A stretch of DNA of 64,000 nucleotides from positions 32,017 to 96,016 of the forward strand of contig JAHDWN010000017.1 in NCBI GenBank assembly GCA_023382675.1, read 5' to 3'. This document shows, in pieces, positions 3,399-26,177 of the stretch. A program made the position numbers and the translations under genes. Within the stretch, counting starts at the first letter, position 1. The number at the start of each line of letters is the position of its first letter. Under the pieces are notes generated by a model. It did not search any database and was not told where the DNA came from. It saw only the letters and a list, made by a program, of their open reading frames with translations. Source of the DNA: Anaerolineae bacterium (GTDB lineage Bacteria > Chloroflexota > Anaerolineae > Aggregatilineales > Phototrophicaceae).

Positions 3399-3409
3399 AG
3401 GAGACGAAC

Positions 3410-4459
3410 GTGGAGACCATCCGTCTGACGGCGTTGGCCTCGTGCGCTGGTTGAGCGTCTAAGCTCGGACCGAGCGAACTGGCGCAGGTGCTGCGACCGC
3501 TAACCGGACTGTTTCCAATTGAAGATTACCCGGATCTGCTCGTCGGGCTGGCTGCGCCGGACGACGCTGCCGTTTACCGACTCGCCGGTGGGCTGGCGGT
3601 TGTCTCGACGGTCGATTTCTTCCCGCCCGTGGTCGATGATCCCTACAGCTTTGGCGCGATTGCGGCGGTCAACGCCATGAGCGACATCTACGCCATGGGC
3701 GGCGAGCCGCTGTTCGCGATCAACCTTGCCGCCTACCCCGACAACCTGGCGCTGGAAGTCCTGACCGAGATCCTGCGCGGCGGCGCGGAGAAAGTCCGCG
3801 AGGCCGGCGCGGTCATCGCCGGGGGGCACACCGTCACCGACAAAGAGCCGAAATATGGCCTGGCCGTCACCGGAACAGTCGATCCTGAGCACATCATCGC
3901 CAAGGGCGGCGCGCGCCCCGGCGACGTGCTCATCCTGACCAAGCCGCTTGGCACCGGCGTCGTCACCACCGCCCACAAACGCGGTATCGCCACCGACGCG
4001 GACATCGCCGCCGCCATCGCCAGCATGACCCGGCTCAACCGCGAGGCGTCCCGGCTGGCACGGGCGCACGGCGTCCACGCCATGACCGACATCACCGGCT
4101 TCGGTCTGGTCGGCCATGCGCACGAGATGGCGCACCTGAGCGACGCGGCCATGCACATCGACTACGCCGCGCTCGACTGGCTGCCGGGCACGCTGCACCA
4201 CGCTAACGACTACGTCTTCCCCGGCGGCATGGAGCGCAACCAGGCGTTCTACAGCCAGTGGGCGCGCTACGACGGCGAGTTCGCCGATTACGAACTGGCG
4301 CTGCTCAACAACCCGGAGACCTCCGGCGGCCTGCTGATGGCCGTCGCGCCCGAAAGCGCCGACGCCTTGCTCGCCAACCTGCTCAGCGCAGGCGATGCCG
4401 CCCGGCGCATCGGCACGGTCGAGCGCGGCAGCGGCGGCCAGATCATCGTGCGCAAGTGA
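3410..4459 (+). CDS. selD: Selenide, water dikinase (selenophosphate synthetase) with in-frame UGA at the active site
   Basis: SelD makes selenophosphate, the selenium donor for Sec-tRNA, from selenide and ATP. A conventional frame opens only at GTG 3488, which would remove the catalytic N-terminus. Reading from GTG 3410, preceded by AGGAG at 3399-3403, gives METIRLTALASCAG, then UGA (3452-3454), then ASKLGPSELAQVL in the same frame as the rest. The UGA falls where SelD enzymes have catalytic Cys or Sec, so it is read as Sec15. The product is 349 aa, close to the usual 347. Later features are typical: PDDAAVY, the DIYAMGG segment, GGHTVTDKEPKYGLAVTG, and DITGFGLVGHAHEM. An SRPBCC remnant follows one base after the stop. 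The identification is firm; Sec insertion is inferred from the frame, not shown. Confidence 0.93.
3452..3475 (+). promoter_or_regulatory. Sec codon with candidate bacterial SECIS hairpin of selD
   Basis: After the UGA (3452-3454) lies a perfect hairpin GCTCG-GAC-CGAGC at 3463-3475, with G as the first loop base. The loop starts 13 bases after the UGA, slightly nearer than in most described bacterial SECIS elements, so I rate the element lower than the Sec call itself. Confidence 0.45.
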
Positions 4460-21852: not shown

Positions 21853-22068
21853 TCATAAATCCGATAGTGCCTTTACGTGCCTGGCCTGTACTCCTTGTAA
21901 CAGATAAGCACAAGCCAGGCATAGCAGAGGCGAACCCGGCTCCGATTTTCTATAGCCATTTTCGGCACACACCCCTACTCCGCAGTTGTGACCGATACCG
22001 ACAGCAGCTCTCACATGAAAGCGGGTTCCACCGGGTCCCAGCTTCTGATCGCAGACATAGCAGTTCAT
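21853..22068 (-). CDS. Small Cys-rich (zinc-ribbon-like) protein coupled to ACR3
   Basis: A 71-aa protein whose ATG (22068-22066) overlaps the stop of ACR3 (ATGA), so it should be translated by coupling. It has MNCYVC (C-x2-C) at the start, NCGVGVC in the middle and LLCLAC (C-x2-C) near residue 50, giving six cysteines and two histidines that could hold a zinc or iron-sulphur centre. A long frame spanning this region in the ACR3 coding part is only a shadow. I do not know this family; position at the end of an arsenic operon suggests arsenic or metal handling. Confidence 0.65.
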   Translation of the reverse strand: MNCYVCDQKLGPGGTRFHVRAAVGIGHNCGVGVCAENGYRKSEPGSPLLCLACAYLLQGVQARHVKALSDL

Positions 22069-23237
22069 GATTGGTCTCCACCGACGTCCGATAACGCTTC
22101 GGCAGGCTCCGGATGAGCCTGTATTTGGGGAGAATCGGGCGGTAACTGCCAGAGCGGATCGCGCGGATATAATCTGCGCCCTAACCAGAGCGAGACATAG
22201 ACCAGACCGATCAGCACTGGGACTTCGACCAGCGGCCCGACCACGGTTGCCAATGCTTCGCTGGATGCCAGACCGAACACGGCAATGGCGACCGCGATTG
22301 CCAGCTCGAAATTGTTGCTGGCGGCGGTGAATGAAATCGTCGCGGTATCGGCATAGGGGAACTTCAAGAAATAGGAGACCGCGAACGAGATGAAGAACAT
22401 GATGCCGAAGTAGACCAGCAGCGGCAGCGCGATGCGCACTACATCCAGTGGTCGCTCCAGGATCACCTCGCCCTTGAGCGAGAACATCATGACGATGGTG
22501 AACAGGAGGCCGATGATCGCCGTCGGGCCAAGCCGGGGGATGAATTTCGTGTCGTACCATGCATCGCCTTTGGCCCGGCTGAGGAAGAAACGGGTCAGAA
22601 ACCCGGCTGCCAGCGGGATGCCCAGGAAGATCAGTACGCTCTTGGCAATGTCTCCCATCGAAATGTTCAAAGCTACGCCCTCAGCGCCCAGCCAACCGGG
22701 CACAACGGTCAGGTAGAAATAGCCCAGCACTGTGTACATCACAATCTGAAACAACGAGTTGATGGCGACCAGCACCGCCGCATACTCATTATCGCCGCAG
22801 GCCAGCATGTTCCAGATCAACACCATCGCAATGCAGCGAGCCAGCCCAACGATGATCAGTCCGGTGCGGTATTCAGGGTGATCGGGCAGCAGCGCCCAGG
22901 CGAGGATGAACATCAGGGCCGGCCCTACGATCCAGTTGAGGAGCAGCGACGTGCCTGACATTTTCCAATTGCTGACTATCGCCGGGATCTTGCCGTAGTT
23001 CACTTTCGCCAGTACCGGATACATCATCCACAGCAGCCCGATAGCGATGGGCAGCGAAACCGTATCGAGCTTGACCGAATCGAGTGCGGGCGCAAGATTG
23101 GGGAACGCTTTCCCCAGCACGATACCGAGCGCCATCGCAATGAAGATCCACAGCGGCAGCCAGCGGTCAAGCATAGACAGTCGTCCAAAGACGCTGCCGC
23201 TGGATGAAGACGGAATGTTTGCGGTTTGAGAAGTCAC
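22065..23237 (-). CDS. acr3: Arsenite efflux permease ACR3
   Basis: A 390-aa membrane protein of the ACR3 (bile/arsenite/riboflavin transporter) family that exports As(III). The start is GTG 23237 with AGGAGG seven bases upstream. About ten helices are visible. Key conserved segments: PLWIFIAMALGIVLG, LLWMMYPVLAKVNYGKI, ARCIAMVLIWNMLACGDNEYAAVLVAINSLFQ (with the functional Cys in MLACGDNEYAA), FTAASNNFELAIAVAIAVFG and GPLVEVPVLIGLVYVSLWL. It is transcribed with the upstream Fe-S and permease genes and with the small Cys-rich gene whose start overlaps its stop. Confidence 0.95.
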   Translation of the reverse strand: MTSQTANIPSSSSGSVFGRLSMLDRWLPLWIFIAMALGIVLGKAFPNLAPALDSVKLDTVSLPIAIGLLWMMYPVLAKVNYGKIPAIVSNWKMSGTSLLLNWIVGPALMFILAWALLPDHPEYRTGLIIVGLARCIAMVLIWNMLACGDNEYAAVLVAINSLFQIVMYTVLGYFYLTVVPGWLGAEGVALNISMGDIAKSVLIFLGIPLAAGFLTRFFLSRAKGDAWYDTKFIPRLGPTAIIGLLFTIVMMFSLKGEVILERPLDVVRIALPLLVYFGIMFFISFAVSYFLKFPYADTATISFTAASNNFELAIAVAIAVFGLASSEALATVVGPLVEVPVLIGLVYVSLWLGRRLYPRDPLWQLPPDSPQIQAHPEPAEALSDVGGDQS

Positions 23238-23331
23238 TGATTTGCCTCCTATTCGTCATACGCTTCAGAATTATCAATGTGGAACAGCATGCCAGGGCTT
23301 AGCAAGATGGTTTTGCTCATACATCAAAACC

Positions 23332-23849
23332 TTACTCGCTACTCGCAACATCACCAATCAGTGCCTCAAGCGTAACTCTCCGATCAGCGAAAGCAGGGTC
23401 TTCGTTCAGAACTTTACATTCGCTGAGTGTTCGTCGATGCTGTAGCAGAGCGACGGCAAACGCCATACAGGTTGCCTCATCACACCGCTTGCAGTTGGTT
23501 TGCGGTAACAGTGACCATATATCCAGAAGCTGCGGTACTCTACGAGGCTCAGAAACCGGAACGAGTTCGTGCCGATGCGTCCAGGTTGCGTTGACGGCAT
23601 CTGCCAGATGTGATAGCAATTCGAGCCCCTCCTCTACGTCATGCACCTGAGTAATAGACACTCGGTCAGCCTGGAGGCTGAGAAACCCTTGCTGACGACG
23701 TAGAGTAAGTGTGCCTGCCTGTGGATTGTGGGTGATAACATTGGGCAACATCGCATATAGGGGATCACCTCATCAAGTCGCCGAGAGGGTTCGCCAATCA
23801 CGATGATCTTCCCCGGTTCAGCCAGACAAGGAAGCGTTTTGACAAGCAT
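23332..23849 (-). pseudogene. 4Fe-4S (Fes domain) protein gene with single-base deletion
   Basis: From ATG 23849 (RBS GAGAGG) the frame reads MLVKTLPCLAEPGKIIVIGEPSRRLDEVIPYM, then homology jumps to the -1 frame as MLPNVITHNPQAGTLTLRR and runs to the stop at 23332. One missing base near 23752 (for example ATGGCGATG instead of ATGCGATG) would join them into about 172 residues. The C-terminal part has LPQTNCKRCDEATCMAFAVALLQ...LSECKVL, a four-Cys Fes-type 4Fe-4S motif as found in corrinoid/CO-dehydrogenase-associated proteins. It may be an electron carrier within the arsenic operon. Real mutation or sequencing error. Confidence 0.7.
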
Positions 23850-23866
23850 AATCCTCTCAAGGTACA

Positions 23867-24088
23867 TCAACGGCTCCCGGTCTTGAAGACATCGCCACGC
23901 ATCTGAGTTATGCCTGCACCAGGCACTTCGACAATCACTTTTCAGCCGCCTTCGAGTAGCTCACGCGCCTTGCCCTTGAAGTGCATCCTCACAAAACTCA
24001 GTGCACCTTCAGAGTCGTCATCAATGAGTACTCGCATCAACTCAATGACATCGGTATCGTCCAAGACAAGGGTGATCGCTCTTTTCAT
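23867..24088 (-). CDS. Very small arsenic-operon protein; candidate selenoprotein read through UGA
   Basis: ATG 24088 reads MKRAITLVLDDTDVIELMR, then DDDSEGALSFVRMHFKGKA, RELLEGG, and a TGA at 23944-23942 (48 aa). The frame continues after TGA as KVIVEVPGAGITQMRGDVF, KTGSR and stops at 23867-23869, where TGATG overlaps the next ATG. Read through, it is 73 aa with residue 49 as the recoded position. On the minus strand a hairpin TGCCT-GGTGC-AGGCA begins such that its G-starting loop is 21 bases after the UGA, within the range described for bacterial SECIS elements. selD in this window also seems to contain Sec. If UGA is a stop, the gene is 23942-24088. I do not recognise the family. Confidence 0.55.
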
Positions 24089-24118
24089 ACCGCCCCCCAG
24101 TACAAACCGCCGGATCGG

Positions 24119-25432
24119 TTAGAACGCCGCCAGCGCCAGCCCGAATAGATAGCCCGCCACGGTGCTGAAGACCGCCACCAGCGACACATAAGCGATGGTC
24201 TTCTGCCGCCCCAGGATGCGGCCTGTGACCATGATGCTTTGCACGCTCAGTTCCGGGTCAGCCAGCAGATAGGCGAGCAGCGGCCCGCGGTGCATCCCCA
24301 GGTCGAGGAACATGCGCGCGATCGGGACTTCGACCAGCGTCGGGAAGTACATGAAGACGCCGAACAGCACGCCGAGCGCGTTCGCCCAGATCGTGTTCTG
24401 CCCGGCCAGCGCGCGTATCCAGTCCTCCGGTACGATGCCGCGCACCATGCCCGCGATGAAGACGCCCGCGATCAAGAGCGGGAAGATCTGCTTGACGAAG
24501 CGCCACGTCTCCGCCAGCCAGTCGGCCAGTTCCTCGCGCGTCAGGAAACGACTCGCCACGTAGGCAATCGCCGCCAGCAGCAGCAGTTCGGCCACGAAGC
24601 GCCCGGTAATGTTGATGATCAGGCTGCCGGGCGCGGTCGTCGGCGCGGCGAACAGGAGCGTCGTCGCCGTCAAACCGAGGGCGGCCCACGTCCAGCGGCT
24701 GAAGCCATTGACGACGTTGTTGAAGCCCTTCCAGGCGACCGGCGCGATGATGACCAGCAGCACGATCAGCGCCGCCCCTTGCAGCGTCAAATGCAGAGCA
24801 TCCAGCCCCTGCTGAAGGCTGACCGGCAGATCCAGCGGCAGATGGATCGAGAACAGCGTCGCCGTCAGCATATCGACCTGGAGCGTTCCGGCGATCAGCA
24901 CCGCCAGCAGCAGCGCGAACAGCCCGCCGAGTGCCGGACGCATTTGGTGCTCGCCCGCGAACATGCCCGCCGCATCGTCCTGCGCCTGGGGCTGGCGGAA
25001 CAGCGCCGCCATGATCAGGCCAATGGCAATGCCGAAGATGATCGACAGCGCCAGCCGCGCGAAAGCGATGTCCGCGCCGATCGCCGCGCCGGTGTAGCTG
25101 ATCGCCAGGATGTTGACCGCCGGGCCGACGAACAGAAACGTGATCGCGGGGCCAAGCCCGGCGCCACGCTTCCAGATGCCCGCGAACAGCGGCAGGATCG
25201 TACACGAGCACACGGCCAGCACGAAGCCGCCCACCGCCGCCGCCGGGTAGCTGATCCAGCGCGGCGTCTTCGGCCCCAGGTAGCGCGTGACCGTCTCTTT
25301 CGGGATCAGCGAAAGATACCCGGCGATAAAGAACGCGGGGACGAGGCAGAGCAGCACGTGCGCCGCCAGATAATCCAGCAGCCCCAACCAGCCTGATTGC
25401 AGCAGCTTGATCAGCAGATCGCCGATTTGCAT
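24119..25432 (-). CDS. ArsP/SO_0444-type permease
   Basis: A 437-aa protein of the PF03773 permease family, with about ten helices in two halves. Signature segment in the first half: AVGGFVLAVCSCTILPLFAGIWKRGAGLGPAITFLFVGPAVNILAI, the CSC pair being typical; the second half has FVKQIFPLLIAGVFIAGMVRG and VLFGVFMYFPTLVEVPIARMFLDLGM. Members export organoarsenicals (ArsP) or metals; the arsenic setting supports an ArsP-like role. Translation starts at ATG 25432, 11 bases downstream (minus strand) of an ArsR box. The next gene down is the very small protein, 30 bases away. Confidence 0.88.
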   Translation of the reverse strand: MQIGDLLIKLLQSGWLGLLDYLAAHVLLCLVPAFFIAGYLSLIPKETVTRYLGPKTPRWISYPAAAVGGFVLAVCSCTILPLFAGIWKRGAGLGPAITFLFVGPAVNILAISYTGAAIGADIAFARLALSIIFGIAIGLIMAALFRQPQAQDDAAGMFAGEHQMRPALGGLFALLLAVLIAGTLQVDMLTATLFSIHLPLDLPVSLQQGLDALHLTLQGAALIVLLVIIAPVAWKGFNNVVNGFSRWTWAALGLTATTLLFAAPTTAPGSLIINITGRFVAELLLLAAIAYVASRFLTREELADWLAETWRFVKQIFPLLIAGVFIAGMVRGIVPEDWIRALAGQNTIWANALGVLFGVFMYFPTLVEVPIARMFLDLGMHRGPLLAYLLADPELSVQSIMVTGRILGRQKTIAYVSLVAVFSTVAGYLFGLALAAF

Positions 25433-25442
25433 AAGACCGCCC

Positions 25443-25464
25443 TACATTCAAGAATCCGAATGTA
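25443..25464. promoter_or_regulatory. ArsR box before the permease gene
   Basis: TACATTC-N8-GAATGTA, a perfect 7-base inverted repeat in front of the permease start. The core ACATTC-N8-GAAT is shared with the site at the arsR start (26174-26193), so the same repressor probably binds both and the operon has two regulated promoters. Confidence 0.75.
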
Positions 25465-25544
25465 AAATTGCAAAAAGATATCCCGTGAAAGCGTACAGCC
25501 AGTCACCGATTAACGCGCATGAATTGGGTCGATGCCCGCTTGGC

Positions 25545-25799
25545 TCACACCGAAGCCGCTTCTGCCTCACGCGCCCACTCGATGATCTTCGCCCGTGCCG
25601 GGATGCGCCCGGTGGAGACGATTTTGTCGTTGATGATCAGCGCCGGTGTGCTGAGCACGCCATGGGCGGCGATATCTTCGTAATCTGTGACCTTCATCAG
25701 GCTGTAGGCTAGCTCGGCTTCATCGAGCGCGGCGCGTGTCTCGGCTTCCAGGCGCTGGCAGTTCGGGCAGCCCGGTCCAAGGACTTTGACGTAAACCAT
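25545..25799 (-). CDS. Small thioredoxin-like redox protein (MTH895/TM0996 type)
   Basis: An 84-aa thioredoxin-fold protein. It starts MVYVKVLGPGCPNCQRLEAETRAALDEA with active site C-P-N-C (residues 11-14) and has the cis-Pro segment GVLSTPALIINDKIVSTGR. These mini-thioredoxins often lie beside arsR and permease genes and are thought to supply reducing equivalents or handle metals. RBS AAGGAAAC. It begins 19 bases downstream of arsR, so the two are one transcript. The active site is Cys, not Sec. Confidence 0.88.
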   Translation of the reverse strand: MVYVKVLGPGCPNCQRLEAETRAALDEAELAYSLMKVTDYEDIAAHGVLSTPALIINDKIVSTGRIPARAKIIEWAREAEAASV

Positions 25800-25817
25800 T
25801 TTCTGTTTCCTTCCGGC

Positions 25818-26177
25818 TCAATCGAAGAGCGTGACATTCACGGTCGTACATTTGGGACATGGGCAGCCATCGAGCGCATGATGTTCATCGGCGAGCGGCC
25901 CGCGCAGCAAATCGAGCAGCGCTATGACCTGCGAATCAGCAATCCAGTAGTAGACCTGCAAGCCGTCGCGGCGGCTTTCGACCAGCCCAGCCTCGCGCAG
26001 TGCCATCAACTGCTGCGACACGTAGGCCTGGCGCTTGCCGAGCGCTGCCTCGATGTGACAGACACATAACTCGCCGCCACGCAGCAGATCGACGATCTGC
26101 AAGCGCGCCGGGTGCGCCAGCGCTTTGAATTTGTCCGCGAGTGATAAATATTGTGAGTTCAAGGGTGCAGCCCACAT
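25818..26177 (-). CDS. arsR: ArsR family metalloregulatory repressor
   Basis: A 119-aa winged-helix repressor. The core is LADKFKALAHPARLQIVDLLRGGELCVCHIEAALGKRQAYVSQQLMALREAGLVESRRDGLQVYYWI. The ELCVCH motif in the helix before recognition gives the As(III)-sensing cysteines; a further CPCPKC near the C-terminus could add ligands. The ATG at 26177 lies inside the operator, so either the transcript is nearly leaderless or translation starts at the TTG around 26162. It heads the leftward arsenic operon. Confidence 0.92.
   Translation of the reverse strand: MWAAPLNSQYLSLADKFKALAHPARLQIVDLLRGGELCVCHIEAALGKRQAYVSQQLMALREAGLVESRRDGLQVYYWIADSQVIALLDLLRGPLADEHHALDGCPCPKCTTVNVTLFD

Follow-up and report, generated by a model that had tools for sequence, protein, structure and literature searches.

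A very small protein family found with bacterial arsenic-export genes that almost certainly contains selenocysteine

Introduction

Does a gene in a bacterial arsenic-resistance locus that appears to stop at codon 49 in fact read that stop as selenocysteine (Sec), and if so, what might such a small protein do beside arsenite exporters? The question arises from a 64,000-nucleotide stretch of DNA (hereafter the window) of an Anaerolineae bacterium (assembly GCA_023382675.1, contig JAHDWN010000017.1), in which an earlier note, made from the sequence alone, pointed to a candidate selenoprotein gene of 73 codons that is interrupted by UGA and followed by a hairpin of the bacterial SECIS form. The note further suggested that SelD in the window uses Sec and that a very short Sec-containing redox protein would be part of arsenic handling. 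Herein we show by comparison with relatives that the observation is correct and that the selenoprotein interpretation is supported, although the suggestion that this is a redox protein is not shown by the data. Based on these comparisons we put forward a hypothetical role for the protein in metalloid detoxification.

Results

The locus and its reading frame

The gene starts with ATG at position 24088 on the minus strand and reads 48 codons, TGA (23944-23942), 24 more codons and a second TGA (23869-23867), the last A of which starts the ATG (23867-23865) of the next gene. The loop (GGTGC) of the stem TGCCT/AGGCA begins 21 bases after the first UGA, as the earlier note had stated, and RNAalifold closes one further G-C pair to leave a G-U-G triloop in the window. 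The features relevant to the analysis are as follows.

25818..26177, minus strand: ArsR-family metalloregulator (PF01022, 9.8e-15; NF033788, 1.7e-26)
25545..25799, minus strand: ArsE/MTH895-type small thioredoxin-like protein (TIGR00412, 7.3e-24, over cut-off)
24119..25432, minus strand: ArsP_1 permease (PF03773, 2.7e-72), ending 30 nt before the selenoprotein gene
23867..24088, minus strand: selenoprotein gene, 73 codons (48 + UGA/Sec + 24) plus the UGA stop at 23867-23869
23942..23944, minus strand: UGA read as Sec (codon 49)
23910..23926, minus strand: SECIS-like hairpin with a 7-bp stem (23920-23926 with 23910-23916) and triloop 23917-23919 (G-U-G)
23332..23867, minus strand: Fe-S protein (PF04060 domain), its ATG overlapping the selenoprotein stop, split into pieces 23634-23867 and 23332-23751
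22065..23237, minus strand: ACR3 arsenite efflux transporter (TIGR00832, 1.9e-130)
3404..4411, plus strand: SelD (part shown), with an in-frame UGA at 3452-3454

The gene content and strand of five neighbouring genes on the minus strand (22065-26177) are consistent with an arsenic resistance operon (ArsR, ArsE, ArsP, ACR3). The Fe-S gene is split by a frameshift around 23750-23765, which is either a real loss or an assembly error; intact copies exist in relatives. A first motif search for SelD gave nothing, but the read-through SelD protein matches TIGR00476 at 8.7e-113, and its in-frame UGA lies near the N-terminus, providing evidence that the host uses selenocysteine.

Relatives carry UGA at the same codon

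A tblastn search with the 73-residue read-through protein in 151 related genomes found 7, the window's own genome included, all with in-frame UGA and matches to both sides of it, and in one of the seven (locus L004) a second TGA was counted that is its normal stop. A profile search of 396 genomes of the class gave 54 match rows in 51 genomes, and all 32 rows with E of 1e-9 or better, from 32 of the 396 genomes, carry UGA, which in the loci that were read is at the same codon. Together these are 36 genomes, whose titles say Anaerolineae, Anaerolinea, Anaerolineales or Chloroflexi. We aligned 37 members, comprising the window, 35 further genomes and one contig of RBG_19FT_COMBO_62_14. The codon is UGA in 37 of 37, while the final stops of the same genes are 22 UGA, 10 UAG and 5 UAA. 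In the consensus the sequence around the site is LEGG-U-K and the motif after Sec is KVxIxVPGAGIxxxxGNLF, with 20-26 residues after Sec in 32 of 33 core members and 11 in one. No homologues ending at ELLEGG were seen, nor was conservation past the UGA lacking, although five members (L067, L068, L073, L074, and L097) have divergent or short tails while keeping the UGA.

Of the 20 rows in the class search without any stop, 10 were inspected together with the one row with UAA. These comprise short relatives ending in HCG (L060, L061, L065, L069, L070, and L072; in L060 QCG), four without Cys there (L062, L063, L066, and L071), of which L062 and L063 sit next to a cysteine-desulfurase-like gene (named by eye), and one apparent fusion (L059, 638-1096), in which the N-terminus of the selenoprotein is joined in frame to the Fe-S protein, apparently by a deletion. 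The HCG type aligns with the family also when the Sec/Cys column and the tail are removed (hhalign probability 97.2, E 4.6e-11), and in two of six loci examined it too lies beside ACR3- and ArsE-like genes (named by eye). Plasmid records gave no match for the Sec form or the Cys form, and viral contigs gave 56 pattern matches, none a relative. A scan of genome contigs gave 10 loci, one of them a chance match, but it under-counts as one of its two patterns spelled Cys at the Sec site and could not find UGA there.

The protein continues beyond the UGA

Frame-specific purifying selection extends past the UGA. For the 33 core members, pN/pS over the 13 codons after the UGA is 0.417 in frame, against 0.995 and 1.545 in the shifted frames, and is 0.464 over the 30 codons before the UGA. 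In the five codons that lie between the UGA and the stem it is 0.303 against 0.838 and 2.718 (32 members, L097 being left out).

A SECIS-like hairpin supported by comparison

Directly after the UGA lies a hairpin with a G-[G/U]-N triloop, for which an ungapped alignment of 33 sequences (L067, L068, L073, and L074 being left out) gives a consensus stem of seven pairs, columns 19-25 with 29-35. Six tested pairs hold in 94.9% of 198 cells, while slid versions reach at most 52.5%, and 19 cells show changes on both sides against 6.8 in shuffles, although relatedness is not corrected for and the count of further pair types (7 against 6.5) does not stand out. Column 24 with column 30 is U-A in 16, C-G in 15 and broken in 2 (L082 and L096). 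These are the third bases of a Pro codon and of an Ala, Thr, or Ser codon (in L096 a second Pro codon), where the genetic code itself asks for no such link (Fisher p 5.7e-8, phylogeny ignored). Parsimony needs seven switches on the best tree, but only three independent U-A/C-G contrasts lie on well-supported branches, too few for significance (sign test p 0.25). The codon that forms the loop is GGG (20), GGU (12), or AGU (1, the Ser codon of L084), never GGC or GGA, even though GGC makes up 47% of Gly codons in neighbouring reading frames (log10 P -13.6, phylogeny again ignored).

The published bSECIS model asks for a loop of 3-9 nt, a stem of 4-16 bp, G in the first two loop positions, often followed by G or U, a distance of 16-37 nt from the UGA and an MFE of -7.5 or lower (PMC13188914). 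All four published criteria are satisfied by 30 of 32 members (L097 also being left out), including the window (-10.4 kcal/mol), against 41.5% of synonymous recodings when any allowed place is counted, and in 27 of the 30 the loop is 20-22 nt from the UGA. The two that miss the criteria are L082 and L103, the latter failing on 45 nt but folding the conserved hairpin on 42 nt, and in three that pass (L087, L088, and L104) the qualifying loop is not the conserved one. Of the four divergent members, L067, L073, and L074 fold a hairpin at about the same distance with other sequence, whereas the MFE structure of L068 is a different hairpin. It should be noted that in the window sequence alone the hairpin is no more stable than synonymous recodings (z = +0.37), and the evidence for it is comparative.

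Distant relatives have Cys at the Sec site

In 400 genomes drawn from the phylum, 8 matched. Two are UGA forms, both in the class and known already, so that no UGA form was seen outside the class in this sample; others are weak matches; and one is a clear homologue outside the class (L108, E 2.2e-16) with Cys at the Sec site followed by KPWFEI. A search of 197 relatives of that genome matched in 15, where three more intact forms have Cys at the site (L115, L116, and L117), one (L118, in a 0.8-Mb genome) has Cys but two in-frame TAG codons, indicating a pseudogene or recoding, and the rest are weaker N-terminal matches. The four intact Cys forms lie 56, 77, 101 and 1,075 bp behind the end of an ACR3 match, and in the last a Usp-like gene (named by eye) lies between. 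SelA was not found in three of these genomes, G676, G929, and G899 (96, 96 and 93% complete), and is a partial, under-cut-off match in the fourth, G882. Their SelB matches (176-189 bits, cut-off 242) are of the size and length of the EF-Tu-like second-best hits in the window's own genome.

Selenium use by the genomes that carry the UGA form

The window's own genome has SelB (367.6 bits), SelA (549.9 bits), and tRNA-Sec (72.4 bits), in addition to the SelD described above. Among the 36 UGA carriers, SelA is found at E 1e-30 or better in 32 (30 over the cut-off), SelB over cut-off in 29, and tRNA-Sec above 60 bits in 25, a threshold that we chose because the gathering score of 47 is also reached by second hits. 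At least one of the three is present in 34 of 36, or in 33 if the partial, under-cut-off SelA match of one carrier, G141, is not counted. The exceptions, G126 and G419, are 81% and 70% complete and show no SelA, no SelB over cut-off and no strong tRNA-Sec. However, SelB is common in the class (314 of 396 genomes), so its presence in carriers says little.

Gene neighbourhood

Over the 37 loci, many of which are cut by contig ends, gene clustering finds a PF04060 Fe-S protein in 22 (14 within 200 bp downstream), ArsR in 13, ArsP and ArsE in 11 each, and ACR3 in 10. At least one of ArsP, ArsE, and ACR3 lies on the same strand within 6.5 kb in 18 loci, or 19 when the ACR3 of genome G164 is added. 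The clustering is greedy and missed the window's own ArsE and the ACR3 genes of G164 and G208, so these counts are lower bounds. Independently, 17 of 36 carriers hold 18 ACR3 genes over cut-off, and from their coordinates we calculate that 11 lie within 6.5 kb of the selenoprotein gene, where by chance, with one copy in some 4.5 Mb, we estimate about 0.3% for each. Nevertheless, 18 of 37 loci show no ACR3, ArsP, or ArsE within 6.5 kb, several of them on short contigs, so arsenic may not be the only target. Other loci carry DGC, OsmC, GcvH-like, or CMD genes (by Pfam), or TSUP or DsbD/thioredoxin-type genes (by eye), and the substrate may vary. In particular, DGC and OsmC genes are in all four of loci L081, L082, L083, and L084, with GcvH-like and ArsE genes in three each and CMD in two, possibly a metalloid or sulfur system of its own, and a radical-SAM-like protein with an AbrB-like N-terminus (named by eye) recurs in 7 of 37 loci, including L079 and L086.

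Predicted structures of the protein and its Fe-S neighbour

AlphaFold predicts three helices (residues 11-46), with block means of 90-96 pLDDT for residues 11-40, and a weak hairpin after Sec with pLDDT of about 50, so that the model is confident only up to about residue 40. Sec follows Gly-Gly at the end of helix three. A fold search with the model gave no useful PDB match (best E 1.9) and a profile search of PDB sequences gave nothing under E 0.3. The window protein has no Cys, nor do 23 of 37 members in all, the window's included, besides Sec, while 14 of 37 have one. The Fe-S neighbour, modelled from 17 of the 26 members of its cluster and not from the window's pieces, gives a pLDDT of 92.3. 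Its C-terminal domain resembles the N-terminal [4Fe-4S] domain of CFeSP, the corrinoid iron-sulfur protein (4c1n, 2ycl; 30-32% identity over 56 columns, rmsd 2.0-2.3 Å, Foldseek probability 1.0 but E 0.09-0.15; PRK04165 2.1e-14, under its cut-off), which probably acts as an electron relay for cofactor activation. At 174 residues the neighbour has no room for the rest of CFeSP.

Comparison with known families

None of the 37 members matches a Pfam model at E 0.01. Among the five UGA-form members scanned against NCBIfam release 20, there were only two matches, both to the window copy and far under the cut-off (13.3 and 10.2 bits). Table 1 of a 2026 review, said to hold 119 families (PMC13188914), has no entry that fits by name or motif, although a few hypothetical families there and in PMC9312934 carry no model against which the protein could be compared. 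The review gives NCBIfam accessions for the families of Haft and Tolstoy 2025 and Haft and Gwadz 2023, and NCBIfam release 20 was searched. Literature searches, judged by title or the start of the abstract and without supplementary files, gave no paper on this family. We conclude that this is a previously undescribed family of bacterial selenoprotein.

UXX-star, SaoC, Tso, and similar small selenoproteins near metal genes (PMC13188914) are likewise without a proven function, and several are tied to metal or organometal gene neighbourhoods, but there is no match to them in NCBIfam, and the new protein has Sec in LEGG-U-K. The thioredoxin-like selenoproteins Sec.1/Sec.2 (PF13192; PMC5330540) are also small and clustered with redox-disulfide proteins, and ArsE in this operon is PF13192, but the new protein is helical in the model, has no PF13192 match and, in the window copy, no Cys with which to form a UxxC/CxxU motif, while the ArsE neighbour has Cys rather than Sec. 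The arsenite metallochaperone ArsD is a small protein with a chalcogen residue beside an arsenite exporter, and we propose a similar manner of working, but there is no ArsD match (PF06953, NF033727) and the window copy has no Cys ligands.

Discussion

We propose that the gene is a true selenoprotein gene in which SelB and tRNA-Sec read UGA 49 as selenocysteine, directed by a short SECIS hairpin 21 nt downstream. Although this rests on comparison and not yet on experiment, we consider it almost certain. The alternative that the UGA is a plain stop, with the gene ending at ELLEGG and followed by a conserved RNA element (an attenuator or terminator) or by a separate micro-ORF, finds some support in the conserved hairpin and in the in-frame ATG or GTG that 28 of 33 core members have within five codons after the UGA, as a micro-ORF would need. 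However, it is very unlikely given the frame-specific selection outside of the stem, the lack of an in-frame stop within 13 codons after the UGA in 32 of 33 core members, the Cys relatives that read straight through the site, the absence of a terminator pattern at the hairpin, and the exclusive use of UGA at the site when 15 of the 37 final stops are UAG or UAA. Reading of the UGA as Trp, or its generic suppression without selenium, would fit the two carriers that lack detectable Sec machinery, but is less likely still, as the gene itself and ArsR, ArsE, and ACR3 in the window end in UGA, it is Cys rather than Trp that stands at the site in distant relatives, most carriers show at least one Sec-machinery gene, and the hairpin has the published G-[G/U] loop.

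The function is less certain. The product of about 70 residues is predicted to have three helices followed by a Gly-Gly-Sec turn and a short conserved tail, and from the gene neighbourhood we infer that it works in metalloid detoxification next to ArsP, ArsE, ACR3, and the CFeSP-like Fe-S protein. We hypothesize that the lone selenolate either binds As(III) or methyl-As(III), or forms a selenenyl-sulfide with the ArsE thioredoxin or the Fe-S partner, and passes the metalloid or electrons on to the exporters. Arsenic binding or chaperoning and a redox relay are equally possible, each of them only tentatively, and as most members have no Cys besides Sec any redox cycle needs a partner. A true selenoprotein with another role, in general thiol/selenol redox or sulfur handling, with the arsenic genes being only frequent neighbours, would accord with the loci that show no ACR3, ArsP, or ArsE within 6.5 kb and with the recurring DsbD/thioredoxin-type, DGC, OsmC, TSUP, and GcvH-like genes. 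We regard this as unlikely but not negligible, since ACR3 clusters with the gene far above chance and the Cys forms in other lineages also lie behind ACR3 in four of four cases. A more speculative and, on present evidence, improbable version of our proposal is that this is the first family of selenolate metallochaperones, in which a single, solvent-exposed Sec on a small helical carrier captures As(III) or methyl-As(III) and is recharged by the Fe-S protein and the ArsE thioredoxin before hand-over to ArsP/ACR3.

Bacterial selenoprotein catalogues find families mainly through Cys homologues and SECIS models (PMC13188914, PMC12013277). The family described here matched no domain model, every close relative found carries UGA, and a gene caller would cut the gene to 48 codons, so that it is easily missed even though it sits in 32 of the 396 genomes of its class. 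It links selenocysteine to arsenite efflux with a protein that carries no thioredoxin-like match, and it makes the question of why a cell pays for Sec in metalloid handling testable on an 8-kDa protein.
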